Source of the DNA: Saprospiraceae bacterium
Lineage (GTDB): Bacteria; Bacteroidota; Bacteroidia; Chitinophagales; Saprospiraceae
DNA: 64,000 bases
Direction: 5' to 3'
NCBI GenBank assembly: GCA_020631235.1
Contig: JAHDHQ010000007.1
Location: 1-64,000, forward strand
The stretch's first letter is position 1. Every line of letters begins with the position of its first letter. The translations under genes were made by a program, and so were the position numbers. The notes under the pieces were generated by a model, which was not told the origin of the DNA, made no database searches, and saw only the letters and a program-made list of their open reading frames with translations. Shown one piece after another: positions 33,633 through 37,039 of the stretch.

Positions 33633-33807
33633 GCGGCTAATAAGGTTTGAATCTTAACACAACATTGAACCATAAAAACAAAGAATGTGAGCATTCTCGC
33701 GGAACAAATAACATTTCGGCAAGAAAAAATGATCCATTTGCCAACCAAAATGAAAAACAACAAAGTCTTATTATTAAGTGACCTTTAATGTATATTTATA
33801 CTTATAG

Positions 33808-34371
33808 TTGCTTACATATACCAGAGCTTTGAAATTAGAAAAGGCCATACAAGGATGTATTGAAAATGATAGACGTAGCCAGCAGTGGTTGTACGAACGA
33901 TATTTTAATACATTGATTCCTATGTGTATGCGATATACAAAGGATCGAGATGAAGCTGTTATTTGCCTAAACAATGGCTTTTTAAAGATTTTTAAGAACT
34001 TAGGTTCTTTGCAAAAAATCGGCAGCATCGAAGCCTGGATGAAACGTATCATTTACCATTCTATTTCAGATTTTTTAAGATCGAAACAAGGTAAGATTAG
34101 GTTTCTGGAGTTAGAACACCGTGACAAAGTCGACCAAAATCAAGGTTTACAACAATTGATGATGGAAGATTTGCTAAATATTATAGACACACTTCCTGAA
34201 CAAACCGCTGATGTTTTTATCCTCTATGCTATACATGGATACAAGCATCGGGAGATTGCAGAAATTAAACAAATGTCTGAAGGTACATCTAAATGGTTGC
34301 TTTCGGAAGCTAGGAAGAGTTTGCAAAAGAAGATATTAAAGTACAGACAAGAAAACTATAATGCAGGATAA
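33808..34371 (+). CDS. ECF-type RNA polymerase sigma factor
   Basis: The 187-residue product has sigma region 2 (residues about 25-90: QWLYERYFNTLIPMCMRYTKDRDEA, then GFLKIFKNL…IEAWMKRIIYHSISDFLR) and region 4 (about 120-175: LPEQTADVFILYAIHGYKHREIAEIKQMSEGTSKWLLSEARKSLQKK). This is the layout of extracytoplasmic-function sigma factors. There is no ATG; TTG at 33808 is used here and TTG at 33829 is an alternative. The gene for a membrane protein overlaps its end by 11 bases, the position normally taken by the cognate anti-sigma factor. Confidence 0.88.
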   Translation: MLTYTRALKLEKAIQGCIENDRRSQQWLYERYFNTLIPMCMRYTKDRDEAVICLNNGFLKIFKNLGSLQKIGSIEAWMKRIIYHSISDFLRSKQGKIRFLELEHRDKVDQNQGLQQLMMEDLLNIIDTLPEQTADVFILYAIHGYKHREIAEIKQMSEGTSKWLLSEARKSLQKKILKYRQENYNAG

Positions 34372-35566
34372 GCATAAGTGGACAGACAAGGAGGTAAAGC
34401 ATGCTTGGGGTGATCTCGAAACCATGTTGGCTAAAGAAATGCCAGTTGCTGCCGAAAAGAAAGGCAGTAAAACCTGGCGATTAGCTGCACTTATGCTCTT
34501 ATCATTTGTGATGGGGATATTGGTGATGATGGCATACTACCAAAATAGTTTTAATAAGACATCTTCCATCCTCAAGCATCAAGAAAAAGTAGAAAAAGTA
34601 GCGCAAGGGCTACAAATCATGTCCATTGATCGATTTAATACAATCGATCTACAAGCCAGTAATACCCAAAGTAATGATTCGGTAAAACCTAATCATACTT
34701 CAGCTATTAAGGAACAAGTTTCTCAACATATCCAAGATGATATTTTTTCGAATAAACATTCACAATTAAGGCCATCAAGCGCAACAAAACCTTTAGTTCA
34801 AGGGTTGCCGGTAGATCAACAAGCAAGTCAAGTACAATATGAAAAAACAACAAGTAATGACCAGTTAGATCAACTTAAAACCCTTGAACTAAATCGTTTA
34901 GATCATGCCAGCAGCTTGCATTTACTGCTTAGTGCTGTCCCAACGATTCGAAATCGAGTTAGTCATGTTTTTGTGGATATGGTTAACAGCAGCAACTTGT
35001 CAAAGGACTTATTAGGTTTAAGAACAGGTGTCGGAATAGAAACTAAACTTTCAAAAAATACTTCATGGATAAAAGCCATCAATTATGAATTTGCTTATCA
35101 CCATGATGTGTTTACTGAGACAAGATTAAATGACGGGCGTACTACAGCACCTGCTCAGCCAGGAGAAGAGGAAGGCATGCCTCCTAAATACATACAGGTT
35201 GATGTAGAACGATATCACATAAGCCATGCTTTTGGATTAATGAGTGGGATCCGATATAAATTGGGTTCGAAGTTGAGTATAGCCAGCACCTTGGGTGTTG
35301 ATTACATTGCTTCTGTGTCGACCCATGAAGATGGCAATGTGCTTTCCGCTAATGCTAGAGAATATCTGACTAATAATGATGCGATAAATAACTGGCAGTT
35401 CTTATCTCATTTGAGTACAGATTATTGGTTTTCTCCTTCTTTCAGTCTAGGCTTAAATTTAGAATATCAATACAAACCACTATTTAAAGATCAGTTAAAT
35501 ATCGAAAGACCATTCGATTTAGCGGATGCACTTTCCGTTGGTTTGAGGACAAGGTATCTTTTCTAA
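34361..35566 (+). CDS. Putative anti-sigma-like trans-envelope protein with barrel-like C-terminus
   Basis: The 401-residue product begins with about 40 cytoplasmic residues (KWTDKEVKHAWGDLETMLAKEMP), then one hydrophobic helix (LAALMLLSFVMGILVMMAYY, residues about 43-65) with no cleavage site. A polar, Ser/Gln-rich linker follows (about 66-195). The last about 200 residues have alternating strands (LGLRTGVGIETKLSKNTSWIKAINYEFAY, FGLMSGIRYKLGSKLSIASTLGVDYIA, FSLGLNLEYQYKPLF) and end LRTRYLF with a terminal phenylalanine, like outer-membrane barrels. The overlap with the sigma gene suggests that the N-terminus binds the sigma factor. A protein tied to the inner membrane with a barrel-like tail is known in Bacteroidota but poorly studied. 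Confidence 0.7.
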   Translation: MQDKHKWTDKEVKHAWGDLETMLAKEMPVAAEKKGSKTWRLAALMLLSFVMGILVMMAYYQNSFNKTSSILKHQEKVEKVAQGLQIMSIDRFNTIDLQASNTQSNDSVKPNHTSAIKEQVSQHIQDDIFSNKHSQLRPSSATKPLVQGLPVDQQASQVQYEKTTSNDQLDQLKTLELNRLDHASSLHLLLSAVPTIRNRVSHVFVDMVNSSNLSKDLLGLRTGVGIETKLSKNTSWIKAINYEFAYHHDVFTETRLNDGRTTAPAQPGEEEGMPPKYIQVDVERYHISHAFGLMSGIRYKLGSKLSIASTLGVDYIASVSTHEDGNVLSANAREYLTNNDAINNWQFLSHLSTDYWFSPSFSLGLNLEYQYKPLFKDQLNIERPFDLADALSVGLRTRYLF

Positions 35567-35575
35567 CAGCATGGG

Positions 35576-37039
35576 CTAAGAAGAAAAATAAATTTCCTTC
35601 ATCATTTTCTCCATTTTTGCTCTTATGATTTTATTCTTGGCGGCATAAGCATTGATGATTATAGAAAAACTACGCCATTTTCCCGATTTACTTTTTACAT
35701 AACCTGTATAGCTCATTACATCTTTCATACTGCCGCTTTTTGCCCATATTTTGCCAGCAGCTGATGATTTAGCAAACATCGATCGGATGGTTCCAGATAC
35801 TCCTCCTTGAGGCAGGTATTTTGTACTTTGTTCAATGCCGTTTTTCAGTGCATATTTCCTTAGGAATTCTGCTAGGGTATAACTCGTTATAAAGGTACGT
35901 GCAGAGAGTCCTGAGCCATCTTCTAAGTTCATCCCAGCATAACTTACACCTAATTTTTTCATGTATCGTTTTATAGCAGATATACCTAACTGGCCCGAGC
36001 CTCCTTTTCTAACCTTAAGCCCGAGGCTTTTTAAAATAGCTTCGCTATACAAATTGTTACTTTCTAGATTATTCCTTCTAACAATGTCTGCAAGTGGTGG
36101 CGAACGAAATTCATGAATGATGGTCCCTTGGCTTTTTTTCTTTCTTGGGTTGAAATTCACCTTATAATCATTAGCCAGAATTTTATTTTTTTTCAATTCT
36201 TGGTGGACATGATAAGCTAAGAAGTAGGGCGGATCAGGAATCGAACCTTTTATAGAAAAGACACCATCGCCTGCTGGGATTGTACCTACAATTCGTTTAA
36301 TATAATTGTAAGGCCCTCCAAAAATATAGGCATTATCGCCAGTCCCAGCACTGTCTACAGCTAATTCATTAGATAGCTGTAATTTGGGAACTTGCGGATA
36401 ATAGGATTTAATGTTTGGTCTTCGGCCTACTTTGCCACGACCATCAAAGTAAATAGTGTATTGGTTTTCATTAACATTAATACCCCAAGCACCACTAGCA
36501 TAGTAGTTTCCGAGATCGTTCCATTGCCACGATGGAGAGATAGGAAAACTATTAAATACAGATTCGTCTGCTATGATAGACCCATCAATGCAAGTAATGC
36601 CTGCTGCTTTAATCACTTTAGTAATTTCATCTAAGAGTTGCTCAAAATTAGGGTATGCCGGAAATTTGGTACTCCCGAGTGTAGGATCTCCACTTCCGTA
36701 AATATACAAATCACCTTGTAGCGTTCCATCTGGGTCTAGACTTCCTTCATAGCCTATTTTAGTTGAAAATTGATAATCTGCACCCAAAATATCTAAAGCC
36801 GTTAAACTGGTAATGACTTTTAAAGAGGAAGCGGGGGTGAGGCTTTTCTTTGCACGGACATCAGCTAAAATATCGCCCGACTCGAGATCCATCACACAAA
36901 CACTCACATTACTATGCTTAAGTTCATTAGAAGCAAGCACTCGCTCTATACCAGATTGGAGTTTACTTTGAGCGATGAGGGGATTCGAATATATTAAATA
37001 AAATAATAATATGTAGATTGTCGATTTATACATCTTCAT
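35576..37039 (-). CDS. dacB: D-alanyl-D-alanine carboxypeptidase/endopeptidase (PBP4, S13)
   Basis: The 487-residue product has a signal peptide (IYILLFYLIYSNPLIAQ) and the three penicillin-binding motifs of family S13: SxxK at PASSLKVITS (serine 71, lysine 74), SxN at ESNNLYSEAIL, and KSG in IWAKSGSMKDV. It also has the large inserted domain between the first and second motifs typical of PBP4/DacB. It trims or cleaves peptidoglycan cross-links in the periplasm. It is the last gene of the minus-strand operon: its start overlaps the end of the deacylase gene by 14 bases. Confidence 0.92.
   Translation of the reverse strand: MKMYKSTIYILLFYLIYSNPLIAQSKLQSGIERVLASNELKHSNVSVCVMDLESGDILADVRAKKSLTPASSLKVITSLTALDILGADYQFSTKIGYEGSLDPDGTLQGDLYIYGSGDPTLGSTKFPAYPNFEQLLDEITKVIKAAGITCIDGSIIADESVFNSFPISPSWQWNDLGNYYASGAWGINVNENQYTIYFDGRGKVGRRPNIKSYYPQVPKLQLSNELAVDSAGTGDNAYIFGGPYNYIKRIVGTIPAGDGVFSIKGSIPDPPYFLAYHVHQELKKNKILANDYKVNFNPRKKKSQGTIIHEFRSPPLADIVRRNNLESNNLYSEAILKSLGLKVRKGGSGQLGISAIKRYMKKLGVSYAGMNLEDGSGLSARTFITSYTLAEFLRKYALKNGIEQSTKYLPQGGVSGTIRSMFAKSSAAGKIWAKSGSMKDVMSYTGYVKSKSGKWRSFSIIINAYAAKNKIIRAKMEKMMKEIYFSS

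Follow-up and report, generated by a model that had tools for sequence, protein, structure and literature searches.

A Saprospiraceae ECF sigma factor and its putative one-chain, two-membrane anti-sigma sensor

The window is a 64,000-nucleotide stretch of a Saprospiraceae bacterium genome (GenBank GCA_020631235.1, contig JAHDHQ010000007.1, positions 1 to 64,000). It contains a gene for an ECF sigma factor of 180 aa (33829 to 34371, + strand), whose product has Pfam matches above the cut-off to Sigma70_r2 and Sigma70_r4_2. Among the 25 NCBIfam matches listed, the general sigma70-ECF superfamily model is the sole one passing its cut-off. The protein is 78% identical to its ortholog in a second genome of the genus (locus L036). 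The original prediction placed the pair at 33808 to 35566. The sigma frame on the + strand is indeed open back to 33808, but the TTG at 33829 is probably the start. A TTG start is present in all three genomes of the genus (33829 in the window, 4469 in both L035 and L036). We placed the start at 33829 because the equivalent TTG is used in both relatives, with no earlier in-frame sigma start upstream of it. A TTG start in all three genomes may hold sigma translation low.

The second gene (34361 to 35566, + strand) encodes a 401-aa protein, here called the partner, and overlaps the sigma gene by 11 bases (34361 to 34371). The first 40 residues (34361 to 34480) are the best conserved part, with the pattern AW..(M/L)...L..E(M/L)P, and form a putative cytoplasmic sigma-binding segment. 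By hydropathy, the chain has a single, putatively uncleaved transmembrane helix at residues 41 to 59 (34481 to 34537), with a mean KD of 2.38. The helix leads into a putative periplasmic tether, residues 60 to 183 (34538 to 34909), which is the least conserved part; judged by composition, 71% of this linker of about 123 residues is polar, charged, Gly, or Pro. Profile homology and a model predict that residues 184 to 401 (34910 to 35563) form an 8-stranded outer-membrane β-barrel, and the chain ends in Phe (...GLRTRYLF). The overlap, the single helix, the long polar linker, and the terminal phenylalanine had all been claimed in the original prediction, and each was confirmed. In the partner, no Pfam match exceeds the cut-off. 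A PBP4-type D-Ala-D-Ala carboxypeptidase gene (window 35576 to 37039) is convergent and lies 9 bases past the barrel gene, a neighborhood that each of the three genus genomes shares.

A search with the single partner protein matched 3 of 60 genomes, the own genome included, and the pair was first read as restricted to the genus. That reading was overturned by a three-sequence profile, which matched 76 of 398 family genomes at E 0.001. Most of these matches cover about the first 150 residues only, in frames that are mostly 400 to 500 aa long. In the two genus relatives, the partner is 66% and 35% identical to that of the window, and the sigma gene and the overlap also recur. A sigma homolog lies directly upstream of the partner in 25 of 27 distant loci (phmmer 1e-37 to 1e-56), and for the remaining two the match starts at base 14 of one locus and base 80 of the other, at the edge of a contig. 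The genes overlap by 8 or 11 bases in 17 of the 25, with the start chosen by script. Because the proteins and the overlap recur in two relatives and across the family, the arrangement is not a matter of chance. A search of the phylum with a 27-row profile matched 103 of 296 genomes, mostly by the barrel half alone, and is therefore little informative on the spread of the full architecture.

We aligned 27 full-length partner proteins, 24 from distant loci and three from the genus. Mean pairwise identity is 42.8% over residues 1 to 32, 19.5% over the barrel, and 13.0% over the linker. W16, L23, and P28 are invariant, and in all 27 proteins the most hydrophobic segment of the N-terminal region begins at residue 25 to 48. 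The strict pairing and the high conservation of this segment speak for an N terminus that binds the sigma factor. Alternatively, the partner could be a structural tether between the inner and outer membranes, or a barrel that shares the operon, exerting no control over the sigma factor. Such a role would fit an N terminus that resembles no known anti-sigma Pfam domain. However, the two genes are paired across the family, with frames that overlap in most loci, and the N terminus is the partner's best conserved region. Moreover, in Bacteroides and Phocaeicola, genetic work is described as showing that a protein of this layout acts as an anti-sigma factor (PMC13088901, PMC9308784). We consider a partner without control over the sigma factor quite improbable.

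Several lines of evidence bear on the C-terminal part. At E 0.01, the Pfam family OMP_b-brl_2 is found in 20 of the 27 family members (best, 6.4e-13) and OMP_b-brl in 10. The window protein has weak barrel matches alone, with none in Pfam at E 0.01. Its barrel region and those of its two orthologs matched a profile of the 24 distant members (hhalign 98.0%, E 2.6e-13). Among solved structures, the family profile matched Opa60, a neisserial outer-membrane barrel, at E 3.8e-7. In the phylum search, the C-terminal half of the profile matched many free-standing frames of about 200 to 250 aa. We inspected 22 of them (192 to 253 aa), and all allow a reading with a hydrophobic, signal-like N terminus, their start codons having been picked by a script that favors such a reading. 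All 27 aligned proteins carry an aromatic residue among their five C-terminal positions.

The original prediction hinged on a C-terminal barrel, and structure prediction did produce one. AlphaFold of residues 183 to 401, run with three sequences, gave 8 strands in the best of five models (pLDDT 61.0, pTM 0.50); the other four had a pLDDT of 29 to 35, so that one of five was usable. The full-length prediction, also with three sequences, had a pLDDT of 33, with values under 50 from residue 54 on. Foldseek with the barrel model returned no match below E 0.001. In VIA-align 2, the model aligned to OmpA with Z 11.6 (rmsd 2.2, 122 aligned) and to OmpX with Z 9.3. The best score (Z 13.3) went to 2q03_B, a 131-residue protein from Shewanella that is uncharacterized, and barrels of the avidin type scored Z 8.5 to 9.1. 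These last two results would suit a barrel of the avidin or lipocalin type that is soluble in the periplasm and attached to an anti-sigma factor of the ordinary inner-membrane kind, in which case the chain would span one membrane. Against this stand the profile matches to outer-membrane families, the signal-like N termini readable in the free-standing matches, and the aromatic residues near the C terminus, and we regard a soluble barrel as unlikely. The profiles, the free-standing barrels, and the moderate-confidence model point to a small outer-membrane barrel, in line with the roughly 200-residue barrel proposed at the outset.

We suggest, with good confidence, that the ECF sigma factor is paired with a dedicated anti-sigma factor and sensor, a single chain that spans two membranes, and that it has an autoregulated promoter and a lipoprotein regulon. 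In this scenario, partner residues 1 to 40 would bind the sigma factor and hold it in the cytoplasm. The helix would cross the inner membrane, the roughly 123 flexible residues would cross the periplasm, and the 8-stranded barrel would sit in the outer membrane as the sensor. Disturbance of the outer membrane or the barrel, or binding of a ligand, may cause cleavage of the chain or a change in it, which would free the sigma factor. The freed sigma factor would read CCAACC-N17/18-GTCTTA at its own promoter and before small envelope lipoprotein genes. A single chain linking an outer-membrane sensor to the sigma factor was the core of the original prediction, and the architecture, the barrel evidence, and the lack of a receptor among the proteins scanned support it.

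In the FecI-FecR-FecA system, an outer-membrane signal reaches an ECF sigma factor through three proteins and TonB, whereas one chain would suffice here. RseA, which acts with sigma-E, is likewise a single-pass anti-sigma factor concerned with envelope stress, but it has no barrel, and outer-membrane proteins are sensed indirectly. An ECF sigma gene beside a membrane protein gene in a Bacteroidota genome could also mean ordinary FecI-FecR-TonB receptor signaling with a degenerate partner, and a TonB-dependent receptor barrel model does match 1 of the 27 family members. However, the partner lacks a FecR, plug, or receptor domain, and a TonB receptor is encoded by neither of the two flanking genes whose products were scanned. 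Pfam and NCBIfam found no FecR-like domain or TonB-dependent receptor in the sigma factor, the partner, or these two flanking proteins. The claim that there is no separate TonB receptor thus holds within that set, and ordinary receptor signaling is hardly credible as an explanation.

Related systems have been described in other Bacteroidota. In B. thetaiotaomicron, Dma1-3 with the Das sigma factors are described as having a dual membrane-spanning anti-sigma architecture, and Dma1 action is described as running via nigD1 (PMC13088901). By its described architecture, Dma/Das resembles the window pair, whose anti-sigma segment and barrel are predicted: an anti-sigma segment at the N terminus is followed by one helix, a long disordered tether, and a barrel at the C terminus, and an ECF sigma gene lies adjacent (PMC13088901). 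EcfO-Reo of P. vulgatus is reported to be induced by antibacterial toxins and is thought to sense outer-membrane stress (PMC9308784, PMC13114119). It is described as spanning all compartments and driving surface NigD lipoproteins (PMC13114119). As described for Phocaeicola vulgatus and Bacteroides fragilis, EcfO-Reo shares with the window pair a cytoplasm-to-surface anti-sigma factor and a lipoprotein regulon (both predicted here), and a proposed role as an outer-membrane stress sensor (PMC9308784, PMC13114119). It differs in its bacterial family and in its NigD targets. A matching architecture is thus published as Dma and EcfO-Reo, and therefore the kind is already known. Our literature searches turned up no Saprospiraceae or Flavobacteria case, which is no proof of absence. 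What is new is a distant branch across the Saprospiraceae, another 17 similarly shaped ECF pairs in the own genome, and a conserved promoter with a predicted target set. A recently described signaling architecture is thereby taken beyond gut Bacteroides and into the Saprospiraceae.

Upstream of the sigma gene is a predicted ECF-type promoter, CCAACC-N18-GTCTTA (33741 to 33770, + strand), which is putatively autoregulatory. All three genus genomes retain it, even though the DNA around it in L036 hardly aligns. The motif, with at most one mismatch, occurs within 250 nt before the sigma gene at 6 of 25 distant loci (L038, L041, L043, L050, L051, and L057, from genera g58, g91, and g93) and is absent from the other 19. 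The expectation at 25 loci was 0.025 in shuffles, and 0 sites came from either the antisense strand or the reversed text. Among the own genome's ECF loci, of which 20 of 30 were examined, a site with at most one mismatch lies upstream of the window sigma gene only; L006 has a two-mismatch site.

We then counted motif sites across the three genus genomes. Exact sites number nine, versus five for the reversed pattern; three of the nine precede this sigma gene, and six precede lipobox genes of 112 to 184 aa. Allowing one mismatch and setting the spacer to 17 bases gives 40 motif sites and 54 reversed-motif control sites. The raw count is therefore not above the control, and the difference lies in where the sites are placed. 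Of the 40, 15 are inside ORFs, 16 are intergenic and 11 to 55 nt before a lipoprotein gene, and nine are intergenic without one. By contrast, 44 of the 54 control sites are inside ORFs and 0 precede a lipoprotein gene (Fisher p 1.4e-7). A first count had taken 31 motif and 30 control sites, and all 40 and 54 later gave the same 16 and 0. Lipoproteins were classified by a crude lipobox rule that missed at least one likely case, a 903-aa product in L169 noticed by eye. Five lipoprotein families retain the motif site in two or three genus genomes. A stricter pattern, AACCNTT-N12/14-CGTCTTA, gave 9 sites in the three genomes, and little was gained.

In Pfam, eight predicted target lipoproteins included none of the NigD family and matched no family above the cut-off; one of the eight had two matches under it. 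The nine intergenic near-match sites that precede no lipoprotein gene include those before nadA (quinolinate synthase, identified for L104), 24 to 25 bases ahead of the start in two genomes, L095 and L104, and nadA is a candidate non-envelope target. The promoter and target list are testable. With a conserved sigma-side end, diverged barrels, and predicted lipoprotein outputs, the question of the Dma/Reo signal becomes approachable through barrel swaps onto one reporter.

The lipoprotein link is weak outside the genus. Three genomes from other genera gave 45 sites; of the 30 that were examined, 3 qualify as lipoprotein linked. In genus g93, which has an ortholog, the figure is 3 of 27 (p 0.10); two intergenic g93 sites precede a sigma gene that is the ortholog by eye and place. 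The motif has the general form of ECF promoters, and therefore another ECF factor could use it. The pair may thus be as we describe while a different ECF sigma factor uses the CCAACC-N17-GTCTTA sites that precede lipoprotein genes, a reading compatible with the architecture. In most of the lipoprotein sites, the spacer is 17 bases long and a C precedes GTCTTA, whereas the sigma factor's own site has 18 bases and an A. In addition, outgroup lipoprotein genes can have similar sites, and the own genome has 31 sigma matches, with the motif checked at 20 of the 30 loci retrieved. On the other hand, the motif was found at none of the other own-genome loci among those examined, and it recurs before orthologous sigma genes in g58, g91, and g93. 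We hold use of the lipoprotein sites by another sigma factor to be a serious possibility but the lesser one, and we favor the window sigma factor as their reader.

The own genome has 31 sigma matches, of which 30 were retrieved as loci. At 18 of the 30, the window included, the next gene encodes a 401- to 592-aa protein with a helix before a long remainder; the helix of the L010 partner is below the hydropathy threshold and was judged by eye. This result suggests that, among the ECF arrangements of a genome, the one-chain layout can be the most frequent. Among the other 17 partners, a match to an outer-membrane barrel family at E 0.001 is seen in 7, another 5 have weak barrel matches (E 0.009 to 0.11), and 5 have none at E 0.5. 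Ten of the 17 pairs lie close behind a co-directed lipobox gene (nine by script, one by eye). These are L168 to L172, L013, L015, L020, L022, and L030, each within about 110 bases behind a lipoprotein-like gene of 141 to 912 aa. Their placement therefore suggests lipoprotein-sigma-anti-sigma operons. The 592-aa partner (L273:154-1929, G000:C25; sigma gene at L009) has five tandem FD...W..F..KL-like repeats before its helix, which may be several sigma-binding modules on the same chain.

For comparison, three Dma proteins are described in B. thetaiotaomicron (PMC13088901), as against up to 18 such pairs here. We tentatively propose, at somewhat short of an even prospect, that Saprospiraceae carry a battery of one-chain outer-membrane sensors. 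The pairs, up to 18 in this 4.2-Mb genome, would each have a barrel wired to its own sigma factor without TonB, and together they would form a general receptor system. The lipoprotein ahead of ten of them may be a target or a ligand, and the five-module partner would be a variant within the set. If so, Bacteroides with its three Dma proteins would represent a small part of that system. At another own-genome locus, L018 (G000:C17), the ECF gene is followed by a gene for a 182-aa one-helix protein, which leaves no room for a barrel.
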